Source: Phycisphaerae bacterium
Lineage (GTDB): Bacteria > Planctomycetota > Phycisphaerae > UBA1845 > UTPLA1
Assembly: GCA_016935885.1 (NCBI GenBank)
Contig: JAFGQA010000453.1
Span: forward strand, 1 to 25,534
Direction of reading: 5' to 3'
Length of the DNA stretch: 25,534 bases
In this document: one piece after another, positions 313 through 25,222 of the stretch
How the letters are laid out: every line of letters begins with the position of its first letter
How positions within the stretch are numbered: the stretch's first letter is position 1
Notes under the pieces: generated by a model
What the model saw: the letters and a program-made list of their open reading frames with translations, nothing else
What the model was told of the DNA's origin: nothing
The model's database searches: none
Translations under genes and position numbers: made by a program

Positions 313-454
313 GGGTCCGTGACACTTCCGGCGGCATTCGTTTCTGGGTGCCACGGGCGGCTTGTCCGCCCGTGTGGTGTCTCTGGTGGGCGCGTGGGGC
401 ATCCACACTGGCAGGCAAGCTGCCAGTGGCACCGGCCTAAACTGTCATGGACCC
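313..454 (+). mobile_element. Family-1 MITE-like element, copy A (142 bp)
   Basis: The ends are GGGTCCGTGACA and TGTCATGGACCC, a 12-bp terminal inverted repeat with one mismatch. Internally there are two hairpins, ACGGGCGG/CCGCCCGT and CACTGGCAG/CTGCCAGTG. The copy at 25072-25213 is the same length, in the opposite orientation, with closely matching sequence. No transposase is encoded. No clear target duplication flanks this copy (GCTGGTTTT versus TACCCTGTT), which suggests an older insertion. It lies about 135 bp upstream of the chosen kdsC start and is stop-free in the kdsC frame, so longer kdsC start calls would be partly element-derived. Confidence 0.75.
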
Positions 455-9128: not shown

Positions 9129-9273
9129 GGGTGCGCGACAGTCAAGGCTGATGCCACTGGCAGCTTGCCTGCCAGTGGTGTATGCCCCATGCGCCCACCG
9201 GATGGACTGCACGGGCGGACAAGCCGCTCGTGGCGCTCAGAATCGAATGCCGCCGAAGGTGTGTCCCGGTCCC
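9129..9273 (-). mobile_element. Family-1 MITE-like element, copy C (145 bp)
   Basis: This copy aligns end to end with the copy at 25072-25213 in the same orientation: GGGTGCGCGACA at the left, TGTCCCGGTCCC at the right, and both internal hairpins (CACTGGCAG..CTGCCAGTG and ACGGGCGG..CCGC). The ends are more worn than in other copies and no target duplication is seen. It lies between sppA and the small Cys-rich membrane protein, upstream of sppA. Confidence 0.68.
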
Positions 9274-9358
9274 AGTGACGGCGCCGGCAAGACGGCCGTG
9301 CCGCCAGCGCGTCGGGACGCACTCCTGATGCTCGTCGATCCGAGGGACCCCGAACCAG

Positions 9359-10170: not shown

Positions 10171-13100
10171 CTACGGGCAGGGACAGGTCACATTCAGGGT
10201 GATCACGCCCTGGGAGCCTGCAAAGTATGACGCCACCTGGACGTAGTATGTATTGCCCGCCGTCAGCCCGGACGCGCACACCTCGGACAGGCGGCCGCAG
10301 TCGTCTTCGCTGCACGCGATCTCGGTTAACGCGCCACACGACCCGTCGTAGACGGCAAGAAGTGTGTCGCTAACCGGCGGCTGCGACTTGCACGTGCTGA
10401 TCAGCGCAGCGGTATCCGTCGCCACGAACGTGTACCACACGGTGCCGACGCCCTGCGCCGGCGTGGGATAATGACAACTGAATGCTGGATCGCTTGGGTT
10501 AGTCGTCGCCAGGGTGTTATCGACCGTGGCCTCGCCGTTGCAGGCGATTGCCTTGGCGCTCGCGCACTCGTCGTTCGTCGGCGCGCCCCCGCACGGGTTC
10601 GGATCACAGCCGACGCCGACGCCCTGATAGGTGCCGCTCGCGGCCTCGCACTCGGCTACGGGGAGCACCTGGCACTCGCCGCCGGCCAGGCAGCACGCAC
10701 TGGCCGGGCACGGGCAGATCAGATCGAGCGTGATTTCGCCGCGAGTATCCTCATCAAACGACGCCACCTGAATGTAGTACTCGTTGCCCTCGGTCAGCCC
10801 GACGACGCACACCTCCGACAGCCGGCCGCACGATCCGCCGGCGTCTTCGTTGCACGCGATCTCGTCCTCGGCGCTGAGGAACAGACACGACGCGGCATCA
10901 TAGACCGCCACGAGCGTGTCATTGGCCGGGCCAACACTGTTGCACGTGCTGAGCATCGCGTCGGTGCCGGCGGCCGTGAACTTGAACCAGACGGTGCCGA
11001 CGCCCTGGGCGCTGCCGCCGAAGTGGCAACTGAATTCGGGGTCGCTCGCGATCGTGGTGGCCCACGTGTTGTCCGCCGTGACTTGGCCGCCGCACGCGAT
11101 CTCGATCGCGCCTTCGCAATCGTCATTGACCGGGATCGGCGGGCACGTGACATCCGAGCAAACGTCACCGGGCCAGAAGACGTCGCCGATGCCCGTGCAG
11201 TCGGCTTCAAGCTGAAGCTCATCACAGGTGTAATCCAGGTGGCAGCACGCGCCCTCCCCGTCGGGCACGCAGTCTATGCTCAGCAAGCCGGACCCGCCGC
11301 TGACACCGAAGCCGACGTCCTTGCCGCCGACGCGAATCAGGAGGCAGTCGGCGAGGTTGGCGGCGACGGCAATCTGCGACCAGGTGAATTCGCCCGTGAT
11401 GTCGTCGTTGCAGGCCACGTCCGTGTTGTCTGCCACCGGACACAGGTTTGGATCGGGACAGCCGCTGGTGCCAGGACCATACGCAGCCAGGAACGTGTCA
11501 TAGGAGCTGCCCTCCGTCCGGATGACGACGTTGCCGGTACACGGCACAAGGTAGCTGTACCAGATGTCTTGGACGATGGATCCGCAATTCGTGGTGGGGG
11601 CGCCGGGTGCCGTCGTGGCGTAGTCGGTGTCGTACGCGATCGAGACGTTCAAGCCCGACAGATGCTCGGCGTCTTCACACTCGTCGTTTTCCACGCCGCA
11701 GGTCGCTCCCGTCAGCAGCAACTGGACGAACGGCTCGATGTCCAGGCCGTTGATGGCCAAGTTCTCGTCGATGTCGGCCCGACAGAAGTCGATTGTGCCC
11801 CCGTCCGGCGGGTCGAGCAGCGCGGCGACAAACGGTGCGACGTCCGACTCGGTGATGAATCCGTCCCCGTTGACATCGCCAACGCAGCAGACCGGGGGCG
11901 GCTGCGGGCAAGGATTCGGATCGCAGTCTGTCCCGGTGCCCTGGTAGACCCCACCGAACGACCCGCAGGCGGAACTGGCGAGGACCAGGCAACTGCCATC
12001 CTCGAAGCAGCAGGCTCCGGGCGGCTGCGGACATGGATTGGGGACGCAGTCCGTGCCGGTCCCTTCGTAGGCGCCGCCGGCGTAGGCGCACTGTGTCGAG
12101 GACATCTCCTGGCAGACACCATCGTCAAAGCAGCAGGCCCCTGTGGGTACCTCGCCGCACGTTGCCCCGTCCAGGAGGTTCTGGACGAATGGCGTAATGT
12201 CGCTCATGTCGATGACTTGGTCCTCGTTCACGTCGGCCCAGCAGAACGGCAGCGTCCCAATCTCCGGTGGCGGATCGGCCAGCAGCAGCTCGACGAACGG
12301 GCCGATGTCCGCACCGTTCAGAAGGTTGTCGTCATTTGCGTCACCGGGGCAGCATTCCGGCGGTTCCGGCTGCGGGCACGTGATCGGCGAGCACGGCTCG
12401 TCGAGCGTAAAAACGTCGCCCTCGGCGACGCACTCCGACTCGAGGAGGATCTCGCACGAGTAGTCTTCGTGGCAGCAGGCGCCCGATCCGGCGGGCACGC
12501 AGCCTACGACCAGTGTGCCGGTTGTGGCGTAATACACGCCGCCGACTCGAATCAGGTATTCGTCGCCTGGCTCCACCTGGAGTCGAACCTCGCACATGTG
12601 GCCGTCCGGGAACTGGCAATCATCGCTTTGGCAGCCGGCCAGCAGCGTCGGCGGGCAATCCCACCCGGCATAGACCGCAATGGACGGATCGCTGTAGTCG
12701 ACAAGGCACAGATTCGCCACAAAGGTGCCCTCACACGTCGCGGCGTATTTGAACCAGACGTCCTGAAGCAGGTCGTGGCATTCCGGCAGCTCGAGCGGAG
12801 GGCCGCCCGTCGTGGCGCCCGTCGCGTCGAAGTCGTGGCTGCCGTCACTGATCTCCTCGGCGTCCTCGCAGTTGTCGTTGGGCGGGGCGCACGTCTGCGG
12901 CAGACATGGCTCACCGACGTCCGTGAAGGCGCCACCCGCATCGGTGCAGTCCGCCTCGTCCATCTGCTGGCATTCGCCGTCGGGAAAACAACAGGCGCCC
13001 TCGCCGGGCAGGACGCAACCGATGGACAGGTAGCCTTCGCCGCTGGCGGTTCCGGCCCCGCCGACGCGGATCTTATAGCAATTGCCCTCGGTGACCGGCA

Positions 13101-15237
13101 CGACGGTTTCACTCGGGCCTTGGGCCTCGCCACATCCGTCGTCATCGCAGGCGAGCCGGTCTCCAGGATCTGCCGGGCAATCGCAGTCTCCATAGACCGC
13201 CAACATCGTGTCGTAGCCGGTACCGAAACACAGGCTGACTGTCAAACCACCGGTGCAGGTCGCCGTGTAGTCGAACCAGACGTCCTGGTTGACCGGGCAG
13301 TCCCCAGGGCCGTCCGTTTCGGCGCCATGCGTGTCAAAGAAGTGAATCCCGTCGCTGACCGTCTCCGCATCCTCGCAAAGGTCCTTCGGAGGCGGACACA
13401 CCAACGGTGAACAGATCTGGTCGACCCAGAAGACCCCCGCCAACGCCGTGCAATCCGCTTCAAACGTGATCAGACAATCGCCATCCGGAAGACAACACGC
13501 CCCCGCGTCCTGCGGCACGCAGCCGACGGCGATGTAGCCCGATCCGGTTGCCACGTCGTCACCTCCGATCCGGATCAGATAACACGTGCCCGCCACGACC
13601 GGTACCGTCACCTCGCTCTGTTCGCCGGTGGTGCCACAGCCGTCGTCGTCGCAGCCGACCTGCGGTCCCAAGGCACCCGGACACGAACAGCCCTCGTAGA
13701 TCGCGATGGCGTCGTCGTAGTCGGTCTCGAAGCACAGGCTGACCGTCAGGCTGCCGGTGCAGGTGGCGACGTATCTGAACCACACGTCCTGGTGGACATT
13801 CGTGCAGTCGCCGCCGGGTGAGTCATCTGGCCCGTCCGTTGTGGCGCCCAGGTTGTTGAACGGGAACAGGCCGTCGCCAGGTAGCAGGATGGCCTGTTTA
13901 CACGGATCGTTGTCGGGGGGACAGTCGAGCGACTCGCACAGATCCTCGTGCCAGACGCCGCTGGCGGTGGAGCAGTCTGTGGGATTCAGATCCTGGCACG
14001 CTTGACCCGGCAGACAACACGCCCCCGGCACAGTGATGCCGCACACCGGGTCCAGGTCGGCGCACAGCACGCCGGGGGCAAAACGGTGAGTCCCCACTGG
14101 GCAATCCGCGATGTTGACGTCATCGTTGCAGTTGGTCGGGGGGGGCTCGGCGTCATTGCAGCATGCGCCGGTGACGGGCGCATCACAAGGAGGGTCCAGG
14201 AACTCGCATAGAGCGCCGGCGTGGAACACCTTGTAGTCGTCGATGCAATCCGCGGGGTCCATGACATCCACGCACACACCGGTGGACTCATCGCAGCACG
14301 CGCCGCGGTTCAGCGGGACCTCCTGGCCAAAGAGGGCAAAGGACAGTTCCTTGTTCGTGCCTGCCGGAGGCGAATCCGGACAGTAATTGATGTTGCCGGG
14401 ATCGAGCTCGGTCCAGAACGGAATACTGTGGTATTCAAAGCCACGGTGGGAAGGGATGCCAAGGTCGGGTTCTTCAGAGATACACCACGCGGATTGCGGC
14501 GGTGCGATGTGCTTCGGGACCAGCGACAGCCAGTACTTGGTGTTCTTGGCCAGGACAATGTCAACCGGAATGTCGATCAGATAACAGAGTCGGCACTCGC
14601 CCACCAGCGTCTCGTTCAGCAGATCGTCTTTGCCCACGAGCACTGAGGCGACGCAGGCGGATTGGGTGCCATCAATATATGGCACGCCGTAAGGACCGTT
14701 GTCGACCGAATTGGTATAGACGGTGACGTAGATCCCATCCCAAGTGGCCGTGGGCGTGGCGCTGCCGTGGCCATCGCCAAAGAACGCGAAGGCGGCCCGC
14801 ACCATTGTGATCTGGCAGTTTGTGTCCGGCGTCTCGATGTCCACGATCTCGAAATCGTCCGCGGCGGCGGCGATGAACCTCCACACGCCGGAACCGAGGC
14901 TCAACTGGCTGGCCGGGTCGCCGTAGTCGTCTAGCGGCGCACCGTTGTCGTACACCGCGGTCCCACCTTCCCGCGGTCCCGCGCCGCCGGGCAGTGTCGT
15001 CCAGGCGGAGTGTATGTCCTCGCCGCGGCGAGTGATCGGATTCACAAGGTCAGGACTCGTTGCCGGTGCCGGGCCGTCGGCGCGCCCTGTGCCCTCCGCG
15101 CCGCGATTGCCTGAAATGGGTGCCTGCTCGAACGCATCGGCGAATGTGCTTGCCGCCGTGCCGAGCAAAAGGACCGCGATCGCCGCCACGGCGATCGATG
15201 GACTCGTCATTCCCGGTTGCCGCCTTCTTGCACACAT
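10171..15237 (-). CDS. Giant secreted Cys-rich modular protein (GACC, PPC-like and dockerin-like modules)
   Basis: This 1688-residue exported protein starts at 15237, behind a strong AAGGAG (15246-15251). Residues 1-35 look like a signal peptide (basic start, hydrophobic IAVAAIAVLLLGTAAS, cleavage near TFADA). A beta-rich N-terminal domain (about 40-290) follows. After it come about ten short Cys modules of the form [GS]ACC..G.C......C, and six about 125-residue modules of the form 'ND.CE.A...DVWF.Y.A.C.G.L...YD...AVY..C...CDDDGC...YLIRVGG' at about 442-572, 617-739, 785-912, 1182-1320, 1367-1505 and 1553-1687. These resemble pre-peptidase C-terminal (PPC) domains. Two EF-hand/dockerin-like segments (GDANDDN..., GDVNGDG...) lie at about 960-1026 and 1115-1179. 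No C-terminal anchor follows the last module. Function is unknown; a surface or secreted adhesin or scaffold is inference. Confidence 0.85.
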   Translation of the reverse strand: MCARRRQPGMTSPSIAVAAIAVLLLGTAASTFADAFEQAPISGNRGAEGTGRADGPAPATSPDLVNPITRRGEDIHSAWTTLPGGAGPREGGTAVYDNGAPLDDYGDPASQLSLGSGVWRFIAAAADDFEIVDIETPDTNCQITMVRAAFAFFGDGHGSATPTATWDGIYVTVYTNSVDNGPYGVPYIDGTQSACVASVLVGKDDLLNETLVGECRLCYLIDIPVDIVLAKNTKYWLSLVPKHIAPPQSAWCISEEPDLGIPSHRGFEYHSIPFWTELDPGNINYCPDSPPAGTNKELSFALFGQEVPLNRGACCDESTGVCVDVMDPADCIDDYKVFHAGALCEFLDPPCDAPVTGACCNDAEPPPTNCNDDVNIADCPVGTHRFAPGVLCADLDPVCGITVPGACCLPGQACQDLNPTDCSTASGVWHEDLCESLDCPPDNDPCKQAILLPGDGLFPFNNLGATTDGPDDSPGGDCTNVHQDVWFRYVATCTGSLTVSLCFETDYDDAIAIYEGCSCPGALGPQVGCDDDGCGTTGEQSEVTVPVVAGTCYLIRIGGDDVATGSGYIAVGCVPQDAGACCLPDGDCLITFEADCTALAGVFWVDQICSPLVCPPPKDLCEDAETVSDGIHFFDTHGAETDGPGDCPVNQDVWFDYTATCTGGLTVSLCFGTGYDTMLAVYGDCDCPADPGDRLACDDDGCGEAQGPSETVVPVTEGNCYKIRVGGAGTASGEGYLSIGCVLPGEGACCFPDGECQQMDEADCTDAGGAFTDVGEPCLPQTCAPPNDNCEDAEEISDGSHDFDATGATTGGPPLELPECHDLLQDVWFKYAATCEGTFVANLCLVDYSDPSIAVYAGWDCPPTLLAGCQSDDCQFPDGHMCEVRLQVEPGDEYLIRVGGVYYATTGTLVVGCVPAGSGACCHEDYSCEILLESECVAEGDVFTLDEPCSPITCPQPEPPECCPGDANDDNLLNGADIGPFVELLLADPPPEIGTLPFCWADVNEDQVIDMSDITPFVQNLLDGATCGEVPTGACCFDDGVCQEMSSTQCAYAGGAYEGTGTDCVPNPCPQPPGACCFEDGSCLVLASSACGSFGGVYQGTGTDCDPNPCPQPPPVCCVGDVNGDGFITESDVAPFVAALLDPPDGGTIDFCRADIDENLAINGLDIEPFVQLLLTGATCGVENDECEDAEHLSGLNVSIAYDTDYATTAPGAPTTNCGSIVQDIWYSYLVPCTGNVVIRTEGSSYDTFLAAYGPGTSGCPDPNLCPVADNTDVACNDDITGEFTWSQIAVAANLADCLLIRVGGKDVGFGVSGGSGLLSIDCVPDGEGACCHLDYTCDELQLEADCTGIGDVFWPGDVCSDVTCPPIPVNDDCEGAIEIACGGQVTADNTWATTIASDPEFSCHFGGSAQGVGTVWFKFTAAGTDAMLSTCNSVGPANDTLVAVYDAASCLFLSAEDEIACNEDAGGSCGRLSEVCVVGLTEGNEYYIQVASFDEDTRGEITLDLICPCPASACCLAGGECQVLPVAECEAASGTYQGVGVGCDPNPCGGAPTNDECASAKAIACNGEATVDNTLATTNPSDPAFSCHYPTPAQGVGTVWYTFVATDTAALISTCKSQPPVSDTLLAVYDGSCGALTEIACSEDDCGRLSEVCASGLTAGNTYYVQVASYFAGSQGVITLNVTCPCP

Positions 15238-15904
15238 GCAGCCTGCTCCTTCCGTAGGTCTCCGTGTCCTCATCGGATCAGCACACTCACACTGCCAGAA
15301 CTTCTTCGAGGGGATGCAGCCATCACCTTGCGGGGAGGAATGCCTGGACGCCCCCGGAGCTGGGTCGGAGTACGGCCCCTATCTACCTTGAGGAACCTCG
15401 TGCCCCCGAGTCTCGTTCCATCGCCCCTTTGCCGCCACGAGGCAAGTGGGATCGGGACGCCCCGCGTCTGCGGGCCTTGTACCCGACTTGCCGAGTGGAA
15501 TCGATCACACGGCGCGCGGCGAAACCCACCTCCTCGAATATATCCTCTATTGCATCATAATGGTAGACCAAGTGTCCCCGGTGCGGTTGATGCCGATAAT
15601 ACGGCATTCAAAGTGCCAGTCTCGACCGGAGAAGAGCCCCGGGCTCCAGCCCGTGGCCGTTCACACCCCCAGCGACGAGCCACGGGCTTCGTACGTGTTT
15701 AGCAGCCCGTGGCAAAACTGTGGCACCGGCGCCAAAGCCGGTGGGTTGGATGATCCACTGGGCATTCTCTCGATTGTCTCCACAGTTCTGGAACGGCTTC
15801 TAGACACGAACCGGCGGACGTTGCGAGGCGGCCCGTTGCGCCCGGATGATCCGGAGACTCGTGACACGCCGTGCTCGGAACGGAGTTTCTCCTGGCGGAC
15901 GGCG
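15238..15904. other. Repeat-rich intergenic region upstream of the giant gene
   Basis: This gap separates two minus-strand genes, so it should hold the promoter of the giant protein and the end of the mfd transcript. Between 15635 and 15743 it contains a cluster of palindromes and a partial family-2 element. A minus-strand open frame at 15383-15607 (74 codons) has a non-low-complexity N-terminal half, but it has no recognisable family and no clear ribosome binding site, so I do not call it a gene. Confidence 0.4.
15635..15743. repeat. Palindrome cluster and partial family-2 element
   Basis: AGCCCCGGGCT..AGCCCGTGGC (15635-15657) and GAGCCACGGGCTTC (about 15677-15690) are followed by CAGCCCGTGGCAAAACTG from 15703. 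From there to about 15743 the sequence matches the left 41 bp of the family-2 elements at 19621 and 22307 and then diverges. This looks like a truncated family-2 copy beside related palindromes. Confidence 0.6.
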
Positions 15905-18900: not shown

Positions 18901-19591
18901 CCGTGGCGAAGATGTCCAAGATGCCCCCGCGTAACGCGAAATCACCTGGCCGCTCGACCTGGTCCAGCCGCTCGAAGCCCCGGTCCGAAAGAAACGTCGC
19001 GATCTGCTCCGGCTCCCGTTGCTGCCCGACCGCGAGTGTCAACGAGTTGGCATCCAGGCACGCGGGCGACGGCACAGGTTGCATCAACGCCTGAACCGGC
19101 GCGACCAACTGGGGGCTGGCGATTGACGATTGATGTGTGCGGCTGGGAGGCTGCGGACTGGATCCAGATGGGTCCGCCGCCGCCGCCAAGGCCGCGCACA
19201 ACCGTGTCCGTTCGGCCCGGATTTCGCCCGCGCCAGATCCCTCGCCCGGCAACGCCTCCCACGCCGGCAGCAGCCCCACCGCACGGCCGAGCACGGTCTC
19301 CATGTCATCTCGGGCGTCATCGGCCTGATCCAGATGCGCCGTAACGAACAGCAACGGCCGGTCGAGCCTCGCCGAAACGAGCGCCGCCAGAATAGGCGCG
19401 GCGGACCCCCACAGCCCAGTTGCGCCAAGCGGGATCCTCTCCGCGGCAAGCCTCGCACAAAGGGCCTTCACGGTGACGTCTTCGGTGATCGTGTTTGACA
19501 CAATCACGCCTGTATTATCGTCTGTGGAACCAAGCCCGACAACCTGAATCAGAGCTTCCGAAACGGTTCGGGCCCGTGCCACTGGCAGCAT
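15905..19591 (-). CDS. mfd: Transcription-repair coupling factor Mfd
   Basis: Mfd releases RNA polymerase stalled at lesions and recruits UvrA for nucleotide excision repair. This 1228-residue protein has the family order. A UvrB-like N-terminal part carries GDFALRGGILDIF (about 18940). The RNA-polymerase-interacting domain has LSDGDYVVHVVHGIARYVG (about 18050). The RecG-like motor has Walker A GDVGYGKTE (about 17590), DEEQRFG (about 17290), LTATPIPRTLHM (about 17200) and QLRGRVGRYKHR (about 16780), and a TRCF C-terminal domain follows. Two low-complexity peptide insertions (near 19105-19165 and 18168-18285) are unlike the family. The C-terminal 50 residues are a basic, low-complexity extension. 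The start at 19591 is the first Met close to the domain, but it lies in a repeat element and has no good ribosome binding site; downstream GTG codons are alternatives. Confidence 0.93.
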   Translation of the reverse strand: MLPVARARTVSEALIQVVGLGSTDDNTGVIVSNTITEDVTVKALCARLAAERIPLGATGLWGSAAPILAALVSARLDRPLLFVTAHLDQADDARDDMETVLGRAVGLLPAWEALPGEGSGAGEIRAERTRLCAALAAAADPSGSSPQPPSRTHQSSIASPQLVAPVQALMQPVPSPACLDANSLTLAVGQQREPEQIATFLSDRGFERLDQVERPGDFALRGGILDIFATADSDPVRVEFFGNEIESIRQFEVGSQRSMRNLEMTRITLSPDPTTSQAKDTTSFLNYLPEDTLVVLEEPVEIAEIARTVLDRLGNPVGHYPIEAIQRRLAAFGQLHVSRFPTATVPDADAMALQCEALPSFEAKTTDAVQQLVSLGRDHPVVVYCDNKGEEDRLAELVAQVLDEATRAGAKRAAPPDIETCIGLIHRGFTWKTNTVQSSAADRQSFHAEAQRAQRFCHSQSAGRDAQSLVAHHQASVLTILPHHELFRRYTQKRRIRKVTTGRPIESFLDLSDGDYVVHVVHGIARYVGMRTMTKGDSRKSEEFLTLRFADGATIHVPVSQIDLVQKYVGAKAMRPPLSKLGGTRWQSTKARVEEAVTDLAGELLRVQAARQAEAGVAFPRDTHWQTEFENAFLYTETPDQASAAGDIKTDMTRQRPMDRLLCGDVGYGKTELAMRAAFKAVEFGKQVAVLVPTTVLAEQHYRTFAERMADYPFIIERLNRFRSAKEQREIVAAAKKGQIDILIGTHRILSKDVGFADLGLVIVDEEQRFGVEHKEHLKCLRTTVDVLTLTATPIPRTLHMAMVGLRDISSLATPPLDRRAISTRVCTWSDGLIRSAIIRELNRDGQVYFVHNRVRPIRNIANNIASLVPEARVIVGHGQMPGDELEGVMLRFVRHEADVLVCTTIIEAGLDIPNVNTIFIDRADMFGLADLHQLRGRVGRYKHRAHCYLLLSPDRPLTGPAAKRLKAVEEFSELGAGFRIAMRDLEIRGAGNILGPEQSGHIAAVGYELYCQMLEKAVKRMRGEAYSERPSVHLELDVEAHIPRSYIPSDRQRMECYRRFAACRSAEEADQLGKDLQDAFGHYPATVETLLTLTEVKVRAAQWNIKTIIKKEPDLIFSIEGEVKKIEPLFAGSGGSVRVPDGRTMHWRLPEHYFHGQTLLRILVNLFRRESTGIDGADREPSEAATSRSKGRPPSRSGPVVVSRNVRPADGPRRRKAGGSRRPPRRP
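18168..18285 (-). repeat. In-frame low-complexity insertion in mfd (CTCTGCGCC repeats)
   Basis: The plus strand contains tandem CTCTGCGCC, CTCTGCGCC and TCTGCGTGA at about 18226-18254, flanked by GATTGGGCATC and GATTGGCGATCGG tracts. In mfd it encodes about 40 residues rich in Gln, Ala, Arg and His (FHAEAQRAQRF in the middle). They interrupt the usual short link between the 'HRGF' and 'HHELF.RY' motifs. Confidence 0.6.
19105..19165 (-). repeat. In-frame GATTGACGATT-type insertion in mfd
   Basis: The plus strand reads GGCGATTGACGATTGATG followed by GGCTGGGAGGCTGCGGACTGG. In mfd it encodes a Ser/Pro/Gln-rich stretch (SPQPPSRTHQSSIASPQ) in the N-terminal UvrB-like region. It resembles short-unit repeats rather than folded protein. 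Confidence 0.5.
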
Positions 19592-19800
19592 GCCTGCCAG
19601 TGTGTAGGCCAAGGCCCTATCAGCCTGTGGCAAAACTGTGGCACCGGCGCCAAAGCCGGTGGTTTTCACGGTCAGGAACGGCGTTTCCGAACCGCTGTTT
19701 TCCCTTTTGCCACGGGCTGCTATGTGCCCACCGGAGAGACCGCACGGGTGGACAAGCCGCCGTACGTGTTTGGCGTTCAAACGGCGTGTCATGGGTAACC
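19576..19800 (-). mobile_element. Family-1 element, copy B, split by a family-2 element
   Basis: The left part (GTGCCACTGGCAGCATGCCTGCCAGTGTG, from 19576) and the right part (GACCGCACGGGTGGACAAGCCGCC, from about 19737) align with the family-1 copies at 9129 and 25072. Between them sits a complete 99-bp family-2 element (19621-19719). Removing it, with one CTAT, restores the expected family-1 spacing. The outer ends are eroded, so the limits are approximate. A hairpin GGCGTGTC/GACACGCC (19783-19811) marks the right edge. The mfd start codon falls in the left hairpin loop. Confidence 0.65.
19621..19719 (+). mobile_element. Family-2 MITE-like element (99 bp), nested in family 1
   Basis: The ends CAGCCTGTGGCAAAA and TTTTGCCACGGGCTG form a 15-bp terminal inverted repeat with one mismatch. 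An internal hairpin, CACCGGC..GCCGGTG, is present. It matches the copy at 22307-22405 almost base for base and in length. It is flanked by CTAT on both sides (19617-19620 and 19720-19723), consistent with a 4-bp target duplication. No protein is encoded. Confidence 0.72.
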
Positions 19801-20042: not shown

Positions 20043-20792
20043 TCACCCGCAGGCTCGGGAAGCTGCAACGGCCGATCGCAGCTCACTGAGCCGTATCAGC
20101 TCGCCGTTCTTGCGAACGCGCCAAAAGCCCCAACCACTTGTCGGCTTCTTCGTCACCGCCTGTGCAGCAGCGGATGGGTAGTCGTAAAGTCGCCCGTCAA
20201 GTTTGATGCGGCCAGTGTGCAGAATGACGGCTTTGTACTCCTCACCCTTGTATGTGGCATAGATGCGTTTGTTCCGAGCGACGATGCCCTTCAACGGTCG
20301 ACCGCCACGGCGACTGGCTGCGCTCTTCCGGCGTCCGCTCGACTTGCGACGAGCAACCTTGGCGGTCAATCGCTTCAAGCGGGCCGCACGACTGAAGATC
20401 TCCTCCAGTTCGGCCCGCTGGCGCCGCTCCACCACCTGGCGGAGTCTCAGCTCAAGGTTGGTCGCCTTGCTGAGCCGTCCTCTTTGTTTGTTGCCCGTGG
20501 GATCGGCGATCCGCAGTAGCAGCGACTCGATTTCCTTCGTGTGATCAATCCTGCGGACCAAATAAAGGCTGAATCGATTCCATCGACCCGCGTGTTGGCC
20601 GCGCAGGTGCTGCTCGATACGGCGCCGGAGATTGACCGCGAGGCCGACATAATACAGGCGATCATCGCTATACAGTGCATAGACCCCGTGCCGCGTCTGC
20701 ACCAGACTGGTGATCTCACCGTGGTACTTCTCAAAAGCCTTTACCGAGATGTGCTCCAGGTAGCCGCCAACGAGAGGATCTGCCGTCGTCAA
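20043..20792 (-). CDS. GIY-YIG nuclease fused to a RAMA-like domain
   Basis: This 249-residue protein has a GIY-YIG endonuclease domain at about 34-100. GVYALY (36-41) and YYVGLA (47-52) are the two signature strands, Arg57 in NLRRRIEQHL is the expected catalytic Arg, and Glu88 or Glu89 in KEIESLLLRIADP is the probable metal-binding Glu. A Lys/Arg-rich helical linker (about 105-165) may bind DNA. The C-terminal part (about 173-238: YKGEEYKAVILHTGRIKLDG, YPSAAAQAV, SGWGFWRV) fits the RAMA/DUF2924-type fold, proposed in the literature to sense modified DNA. The TTG start at 20792 was chosen because GGGAGGTG lies 4-5 nt upstream; the frame is open to 20963 but without a better start. It stands alone, with no methyltransferase nearby. 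Confidence 0.8.
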   Translation of the reverse strand: MTTADPLVGGYLEHISVKAFEKYHGEITSLVQTRHGVYALYSDDRLYYVGLAVNLRRRIEQHLRGQHAGRWNRFSLYLVRRIDHTKEIESLLLRIADPTGNKQRGRLSKATNLELRLRQVVERRQRAELEEIFSRAARLKRLTAKVARRKSSGRRKSAASRRGGRPLKGIVARNKRIYATYKGEEYKAVILHTGRIKLDGRLYDYPSAAAQAVTKKPTSGWGFWRVRKNGELIRLSELRSAVAASRACG

Positions 20793-20796
20793 GATG

Positions 20797-20804
20797 CACC
20801 TCCC
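20797..20804 (-). promoter_or_regulatory. Strong Shine-Dalgarno that sets a TTG start
   Basis: On the minus strand GGGAGGTG precedes TTG (20790-20792) by a few bases. No ATG or GTG in this frame nearby has a comparable site, so it supports the TTG start of the GIY-YIG gene. Confidence 0.65.
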
Positions 20805-20887
20805 TCGCGTCAAGTAAAACCGTGTCACAACCACCTGCCCCAACCCACCAATGCCGACAGTTGTCGATGTGCTGCGGTTATTGTAAT

Positions 20888-20907
20888 CGTAAACGCACGT
20901 AAACGCA
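20888..20907 (+). repeat. Two tandem copies of CGTAAACGCA
   Basis: Two perfect 10-bp units abut each other between the divergent GIY-YIG and IPTL-type genes. They could be an operator, but no protein partner can be named. Confidence 0.5.
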
Positions 20908-20936
20908 ACGGCTGACAACGATTTCAGGCACGTGTC

Positions 20937-20966
20937 TTGACTTCTCCAGACTTTTTCCGGCACAAT
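20937..20966 (+). promoter_or_regulatory. Candidate sigma-70-like promoter for the 21137 gene
   Basis: TTGACT and CACAAT are separated by 18 bp, about 170 bp upstream of the start at 21137. The -35 box is good and the -10 box is weak. It lies about 30 bp downstream of the tandem CGTAAACGCA repeat. Confidence 0.3.
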
Positions 20967-22306: not shown

Positions 22307-22405
22307 CAGCCCTTGGCAGAACTGTGGCTCCGGCGCCAAAGCCGGTGGTTTTCACGGTCAGGAACGGCTTTTCTGAACCGCTGTTTTCCCTTCTACCACG
22401 GGCTG
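22307..22405 (+). mobile_element. Family-2 MITE-like element (99 bp) between two genes
   Basis: The ends CAGCCCTTGGCAGAA and TTCTACCACGGGCTG form imperfect terminal inverted repeats. The interior is almost identical to the copy at 19621-19719, including CACGGTCAGGAACGG and the CCGGCGCCAAAGCCGG hairpin. It begins at the base after the stop codon of the IPTL-type gene and ends 18 bp before the trpA stop codon, filling the convergent gap. No clear target duplication is seen. Confidence 0.7.
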
Positions 22406-25062: not shown

Positions 25063-25071
25063 TGATTCTGC
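25063..25071 (+). repeat. Left target-site duplication TGATTCTGC
   Basis: This is the left copy of the perfect 9-bp direct repeat that brackets the family-1 element. Confidence 0.8.
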
Positions 25072-25213
25072 GGGTCCGTGACAGCTTGGGCGGGTGCCAC
25101 TGGCAGCTTGCCTGCCAGTGTGGATGCCCCATGCGCCCGCCAGATAGACCGCACGGGCGGACAAGCCGCCTGCGGCACCCAAGATCGAATGCCGCCGGAA
25201 GTGTCACGGACCC
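25072..25213 (-). mobile_element. Family-1 MITE-like element, copy D (142 bp), with target duplication
   Basis: GGGTCCGTGACA at the left and TGTCACGGACCC at the right form a perfect 12-bp terminal inverted repeat; 18 of the outer 22 bp pair. It is flanked by TGATTCTGC at 25063-25071 and again at 25214-25222, a perfect 9-bp direct repeat as left by a transposase. Two internal hairpins (CACTGGCAG..CTGCCAGTG and ACGGGCGG..CCGC) are shared with the other copies. It has no coding capacity for a transposase, so it must be mobilised in trans. It lies between the ACT gene and tRNA-Val. Confidence 0.85.
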
Positions 25214-25222
25214 TGATTCTGC
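25214..25222 (+). repeat. Right target-site duplication TGATTCTGC
   Basis: This is the right copy of the 9-bp direct repeat, immediately after the terminal inverted repeat. Confidence 0.8.

Follow-up and report, generated by a model that had tools for sequence, protein, structure and literature searches.

A gene-less mobile element of uncultured planctomycetes, apparently moved by a larger, unnamed insertion sequence that shares its ends

A 142-bp repeat on a Phycisphaerae contig is apparently a parasitic, gene-less element of uncultured planctomycetes, moved by a larger and so far unnamed insertion sequence (IS) with the same ends. Related genomes contain ISs with matching ends, one of them inside a 9-bp duplication, as well as internally deleted IS copies, and the repeat is thus a MITE, presumably moved in trans. 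The full reading, in which we place high confidence, is that this is a MITE of an ISKra4-like IS family, that a partner DDE transposase acts on it in trans and that its interior is hairpin cargo enclosed by the ends. The intact copy is a true MITE, and the first-pass annotation had read it correctly; added here are the family of the partner, hairpin interiors that look separable from the ends, and transposase genes laid out in +1. A probable enzyme can be named for a small Phycisphaerae repeat, whose exact ends are given below for annotation.

The intact element and its relatives in the window

The window, by which we mean the whole stretch of 25,534 nucleotides analysed, holds the following features.

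25072..25213, + strand: non-autonomous element (MITE), intact copy A, 142 bp, with 12-bp terminal inverted repeats and an exact 9-bp target-site duplication
25063..25071, no strand: left copy of the 9-bp target-site duplication, TGATTCTGC, identical to 25214-25222
25214..25222, no strand: right copy of the 9-bp target-site duplication, TGATTCTGC, identical to 25063-25071
25072..25093, + strand: left terminal inverted repeat, exact extended pattern GGGTCCRTGACANNNTNGGCGG, a pattern also found at ISKra4-like IS ends
25192..25213, - strand: right terminal inverted repeat, GGGTCCGTGACACTTCCGGCGG, with one mismatch against the extended pattern
25094..25120, + strand: inner REP-like hairpin 1, GTGCCACTGGCAGCTTGCCTGCCAGTG, a 27-mer pattern found in 24 of 101 genomes
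25152..25178, - strand: inner REP-like hairpin 2, in the opposite orientation to hairpin 1 and imperfect in copy A
313..454, - strand: copy B, 142 bp, identity to copy A 90%, ends good, target-site duplication absent
9129..9274, + strand: copy C, 146 bp, identity about 83%, ends decayed, target-site duplication absent
19557..19761, + strand: copy D, decayed, without target-site duplication and split by a second element
19621..19719, + strand: second-family element of 99 bp within copy D, ends CAGCCYGTGGCAAAA and TTTTGCCACGGGCTG, target-site duplication CTAT (4 bp); coordinates counted by hand

The perfect 12-bp terminal inverted repeats and identical 9-bp flanks originally described for the 142-bp element are both present. 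The two ends of copy A (25072-25213) read GGGTCCGTGACA, match at 12 of 12 positions and continue imperfectly to about 22 bp, and TGATTCTGC stands exactly at 25063-25071 and 25214-25222. A perfect 12-bp inverted repeat with arms 60-400 bp apart and exact 9-bp flanks is seen a single time in the window and never in 200 dinucleotide shuffles. Folded as single-stranded DNA, copy A has z = -7.3, which none of 200 shuffles equalled, and it is situated 36 bp past a stop codon, ahead of a tRNA gene. The view that the element is non-autonomous, mobile and recently inserted draws support from these ends, from the exact duplication and from the duplications that recur in relatives (see below). The element combines the features by which MITEs are recognized: it has terminal inverted repeats, duplicates a fixed length of target at independent insertions, lacks a transposase gene and is present in multiple copies.

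The further claim of three more copies in 25 kb stands in so far as copies B, C and D are clearly related to copy A; it needs amending in that none of them retains a target-site duplication, C and D are decayed, and D is split by another element. These three are older than copy A. The abundance of the element in its source genome is judged solely from these four copies in 25.5 kb and from the 107 exact ends of a related genome, CSMAG_386. The element that splits copy D belongs to a second mini-element family, whose left end can also be written CAGCCTGTGGCAAAA or CAGCCYGTGGCAAAACTGTGGC and whose right end is TTTTGCCACGGGCTG; a further mini-element of this family (about 99 bp) lies at about 22307-22405 and a partial one at 15700-15747. 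Its exact left-end pattern was found in two of the 101 related genomes described below, at 13 places in CSMAG_386 and at two in Zod_Metabat.429.

The window was said to contain no transposase, and this agrees with our searches as far as they extend: tblastn with both open reading frames of the cognate transposase, ORF1 and ORF2, gave no match in the window at E <= 1, and a Pfam scan of eight of the 98 listed window ORFs gave no transposase domain. Elsewhere in the window, a 1700-aa ORF with internal repeats occupies 10171-15273 on the - strand (direct DNA repeats at 10174/10705 and 12799/13306, 65-68% identical), and a protein in which Pfam recognizes GIY-YIG nuclease and RAMA domains is encoded at 20043-20963, also on the - strand.

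The insertion site itself can be compared across relatives, as nine of 12 fetched relatives keep the order of an ACT-domain gene followed by tRNA-Val(tac). Their spacers measure 28-306 bp (the window's own is 325 bp), and none of the nine has a blastn match to the element. Eight lack any 12-mer that resembles the terminal repeat within two mismatches; the exception (L308) has one, which weighs against the MITE reading.

Ends and target duplications in related genomes

We scanned a genome collection in which 84,980 species are each represented once for both ends of the element, allowing either R or Y at one position and a distance of 105-135 bp. The scan returned 17 stretches in four metagenome-assembled genomes titled Phycisphaerae or Planctomycetota (CSMAG_386, CSMAG_2662, AS01afH2WH_3 and Zod_Metabat.429); a viral collection gave no exact copy of the element. 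Comparison of the scanned stretches lengthened the end to GGGTCCRTGACANNNTNGGCGG, which is present exactly in at least one place in 29 of 101 genomes around Zod_Metabat.429, against no match to the reversed pattern in any of the 101. CSMAG_386 has 107 exact ends in 5.2 Mb. Many of its contigs begin or end about 100-150 bases from such ends, and given these contig termini the short-read assembly of this genome may have been broken by the MITE. One pair of ends 3190 bp apart (L076) was considered as a single element and set aside, since it is really two MITEs of 151 and 166 bp.

Copy A has counterparts in CSMAG_386 (L048; 90.6% identity across positions 1-138) and in Zod_Metabat.429 (L015/L018; 89% across 142 positions). 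For the neighbouring ACT-domain protein, the best match among 200 relatives is again in CSMAG_386, at 74% identity, and the Zod_Metabat.429 protein is 52% identical. That a non-coding element (about 91% and 89%) should be more alike than a conserved protein suggests that the element has moved between lineages.

Target duplications were assessed in 83 distinct elements, drawn from the fetched loci and the window, whose two ends together had at most four mismatches against the 22-mer, lay 60-700 bp apart and had at least 10 flanking bases on each side; window copies C and D and any element that ran off a contig were left out, and mates were picked by end match alone. An exact target-site duplication of 8-10 bp flanks 31 of the 83 (25 of 9 bp, four of 8 bp and two of 10 bp), and the number rises to 49 if one mismatch is allowed. 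When each left flank was paired with the right flank of every other element, the 6806 wrong pairs gave no exact duplication and nine with at most one mismatch. CSMAG_386 contributes 42 of the elements (22 with exact duplications, 28 with at most one mismatch), yet duplications are also frequent among the 41 from outside it (nine and 21, respectively). Weighing on the other side, 34 of the 83, window copy B among them, have no duplication even with one mismatch. No strong consensus was seen among the 25 exact 9-mers. Inconsistent ends and missing duplications in copies elsewhere would have spoken against transposition; when these were looked at, the end pattern recurred in relatives and duplications of 8-10 bp recurred at independent sites.

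The partner insertion sequence and its transposase

At L100, a locus of CSMAG_2662, an end continues into an incomplete ORF resembling the start of a transposase. NCBIfam and Pfam scans of this 52-aa start found nothing, and against the four genomes it matched only itself and, weakly, two other places. The NCBIfam ISKra4 model NF033572 on its own gave seven partial matches in the four genomes, all in CSMAG_2662, and at three of those loci an end GGGTGCATGACCGTTTATGCGG lies nearby, which was the lead to the partner IS. The search for a full-length IS with matching ends, proposed along with the original claim that the mobilizing enzyme lies elsewhere, yielded in relatives four ISs of about 1.53 kb with an ISKra4-like transposase, besides three deletion derivatives.

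L202, 1525 bp: full-length IS with both ends, related genome
L203, 1524 bp: full-length IS with both ends, related genome
L204, 1541 bp: full-length IS with both ends, related genome
L205, 1533 bp: full-length IS with both ends, related genome
L160, 499 bp: internally deleted IS copy, no duplication
L210, 560 bp: internally deleted IS copy, no duplication
L207, 687 bp: internally deleted IS copy, no duplication

In L205 the ends are alike over about 22 bp and a perfect 9-bp duplication, CGAAGATCG, surrounds them, so that through this copy the partner IS shows the duplication of 8-9 bp and the inverted repeats of 18-39 bp of the ISKra4 family. An autonomous partner with matching ends is present in related genomes. 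The link between ends and enzyme is further supported by exact GGGTCC-type ends that stand directly 3' of the transposase C-terminus, so that the extended terminal repeat contains the stop codon (L153-L156, L160, L163), that adjoin the coding sequence at its start (L100, L208) or at both ends (L160), or that lie at the C-terminus (L163 and the contig ends of G022/G008); in L208, an IS cut by a contig end, the left end is exactly GGGTCCGTGACAGTATCGGCGG. The transposase C-terminus has matches in 59 of 200 genomes searched, and through these the four full-length ISs and L208 were located. Transposase matches occur in 18 of the 29 genomes with an exact end, compared with 14 of the 72 without one (Fisher p = 9e-5, uncorrected for kinship).

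Several observations weigh against the partnership. The ends of the four full-length ISs read GGGTGC or AGGTCC, at least one base off the MITE end, and exact GGGTCC ends beside a transposase are seen only on fragments and on copies that are contig-cut or internally deleted. The duplication is kept in one of the four full-length ISs and in none of the three deletion derivatives. Eleven of the 29 genomes with an exact end have no transposase match; among the four metagenome-assembled genomes of the two-end scan, CSMAG_386, AS01afH2WH_3 and Zod_Metabat.429 have none and CSMAG_2662 has partial matches only, all four being draft assemblies.

The transposase matches NF033572 with E = 4.7e-49 and 4.7e-51, and the match spans profile positions 101-420. 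With ORF2 alone the match (E = 4.7e-51) scores 174 bits, under the curated cut-off of 205, which weighs against outright membership of the family; ISKra4 is by far the best model, the next being ISLre2 at E = 7.6e-16, and ORF1 alone gives E = 0.0028. The 15 listed of 51 relatives in plasmid records are 25-28% identical to the partner transposase and, where named, are transposases of the ISKra4 or ISLre2 family or hypothetical proteins. At least 1580 of 7997 candidate proteins scored are homologous to ORF2 at E <= 1e-20, exposing a widespread transposase family; among the 120 homologues listed, all readable names are 'hypothetical protein' and none has a Pfam domain. The original statement that a 9-bp duplication is compatible with several DDE transposase families left the family unnamed; the probable one is ISKra4-like.

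The transposase is encoded in two overlapping frames. ORF1 carries two CxxC motifs and (G/R)SFSPSG, and ORF2 lies in the +1 (or -2) frame relative to it over an invariant 17-nt stretch, TCTTTTTCCCCCTCAGG, in all six IS copies in which this region survives (L202-L206 and L208, from six genomes). ORF1 stops just past TCTTTTTCCCCCTCAGG in five of the six and continues in L203, whose ORF2 has one internal stop. The candidate slip region consists of a T5C5 run followed by TCA and contains a putative CCC_U +1 site. Among the 120 listed ORF2 homologues, the paired CxxC motifs of ORF1 are missing from 119; the remaining one, P0031, is a natural fusion of 468 aa and reads GGSFSPQVRDW, which is the product predicted from a +1 slip at CCC. 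We favour a candidate +1 ribosomal frameshift as the way in which the partner transposase is made.

A transcriptional slip is the less favoured route, as T5C5 is shorter than the run that IS1447 needs. In that IS3-family element, as described in PMC6211511, ORF2 is likewise reached by a +1 change, but the transcriptional slippage occurs in a run of nine A's and requires seven of them, in place of the T5C5 and TCA of the partner IS. According to a 2016 review, several ISs use +1 transcriptional realignment and none was known with +1 ribosomal frameshifting; nor did we find any report of it for an ISKra4-like family, most subscription papers lying outside that search. A CCC_U +1 site like that of the partner IS is found in the cps gene of Listeria phage PSA (ACA_CCC_UCC; PMC5009743). 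The conserved two-frame layout makes +1 ribosomal frameshifting in this IS testable with a reporter.

One pair of exact GGGTCC-type ends encloses a different gene. In L152 (1070-2900) they lie 1831 bp apart around a 419-aa ORF of IS110 type (PF02371, E = 2.6e-16; PF01548, E = 2.7e-10). We rejected this gene as the partner, as the pair has no matching target duplication. IS110 elements are not known for inverted ends or 9-bp duplications of this kind, and for both these reasons L152 is as likely an IS110 copy that perhaps inserted into an old element.

Hairpin interiors, alternative readings and known systems

Although the ends are shared, interiors vary widely. We clustered the 80 of the 83 elements that are longer than 110 bp and obtained 21 clusters when matches had to cover half the length, or 15 when any local match at E <= 1e-3 joined two interiors. 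The window-type cluster has 29 members by the first measure, and the largest cluster by the second again has 29; one cluster is an IS-derived pair. Only two of the 80 interiors match the interior of the IS, both of them deletion derivatives, and this lack of interior homology between MITE and IS weighs against the partnership. In an earlier comparison of the window with the IS, tblastx without low-complexity masking gave many weak matches that we judged to be GC-rich noise, and tblastn was used instead. Nearly all interiors of elements of 110-400 bp (73 of 75) fold better than one mononucleotide shuffle each.

The window-type interior consists of two GTGCCACTGGCRGCTTGYCYGCCAGTG-like hairpins in inverted orientation, that is, a short dispersed palindrome in inverted pairs, as in REP and REPIN sequences. 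Several of the 24 genomes with the exact 27-mer pattern lack an exact extended end, among them G007 (18 places), G017 (9), G033 (25) and G053 (57). At L066 of CSMAG_386 (1475-1607) a hairpin doublet is found inside other inverted 16-mers, GCTAGTGCATCGCCAC, placed at 1475 and 1607, so another mini-element family may carry the doublet as well. On these two observations, hairpins and ends look like separable modules. In L071 an end resembling GCTAGTGCATCGCCAC lies near one hairpin.

From these sequence comparisons we infer how the element would be mobilized. Its ends, of about 22 bp, are those of the 1.52-1.54-kb ISKra4-like IS; the DDE transposase of that IS would bind them in trans and cut the target with a 9-bp stagger, leaving the 9-bp duplication; and the interior, which is not IS sequence but an inverted REP-like hairpin doublet, would have been captured between the ends as cargo. 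A broader proposal, on which we remain undecided and lean slightly towards doubt, is that the bare ends work as an exchangeable casing into which unrelated hairpin repeats have been taken again and again, among them REP-like doublets with an independent life of their own.

The shared core measures merely 12-22 bp, and the element could in principle derive from another family with GGG ends and 9-bp duplications, its resemblance to ISKra4-like ends being convergence or chance; the L152 pair, with its IS110-family ORF between exact ends, might be read in the same way. That pair lacks a target duplication, however, and the extended 22-mer occurs at both ends of, or adjoining, an ISKra4-like transposase in several genomes, while the internally deleted L160 bears exactly these ends. 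We consider such an origin quite unlikely. The mobile unit might instead be the inner doublet, a REPIN-like sequence moved by a RAYT, with the outer ends incidental. The occurrence of the hairpin pattern in genomes without the exact end would fit, and Y1_Tnp/RAYT-type transposases were matched in all seven genomes checked; but at 16 fetched Y1 loci (of 60 matches listed) no hairpin was found within five mismatches, and on that count we discarded a RAYT as the mover. The target duplications, moreover, abut the outer ends at many sites, and those ends also enclose quite different interiors. The position of its duplication makes a REPIN-like origin very improbable for copy A, even if the same explanation may hold for hairpins elsewhere.

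It has also to be asked whether selection maintains the repeat as a terminator-like hairpin with a structural or regulatory role, the flank repeat being due to chance. The very strong fold and the location between a stop codon and a tRNA gene are what such a hairpin would lead one to expect. Against it, no shuffle reproduced the flank match, duplications were present in relatives when looked for, and all nine syntenic spacers lack a match to the element, all of which makes selection plus chance exceedingly improbable. The trans-mobilized MITE of an ISKra4-like family is accordingly the reading that we carry into the comparison with known systems.

Guerillot et al. 2014 (PMC3942029) describe p-MULT elements whose inverted repeats measure 18-39 bp and whose duplications span 8 or 9 bp; their p-MULT 4 is the ISKra4 family, comprising the ISAzba1, ISMich2 and ISKra4 groups, and its hosts include Planctomycetes. 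The partner IS resembles this family in its NF033572 match and in the sizes of its repeats and duplication, and differs in that the proteins in plasmid records (15 listed of 51) are only 25-28% identical to its transposase. Its two-frame transposase recalls the ISMich2 group, for which the same paper gives a transposase split in two frames with a predicted -1 shift; here, in contrast, ORF2 lies in +1 in all six copies. The word 'MITE' does not occur in the main text of that paper.

With REPINs and BIMEs, as portrayed in PMC3116915 and PMC3733652, the element shares an interior built as an inverted doublet of palindromes of about 27 bp that are also dispersed alone. Unlike them, it holds the doublet inside DDE-type terminal inverted repeats with a 9-bp duplication; the hairpin unit, GTGCCACTGGC...GCCAGTG, starts GTGCCAC and on inspection has neither a GTAG nor a CGTC tag, and it is absent from the 16 fetched loci around Y1 genes. 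The bacterial MITEs listed in PMC3733652, among them NEMIS, RUP and Nezha, are short and non-coding with terminal inverted repeats of 15-30 bp, as is the present element, and are mobilized by a transposase that recognizes those repeats. Where the element differs from them is in joining a single type of terminal inverted repeat to 15-21 classes of interior across related genomes, and this enclosure of many hairpin-rich interiors by one set of DDE ends bears on how MITEs originate.
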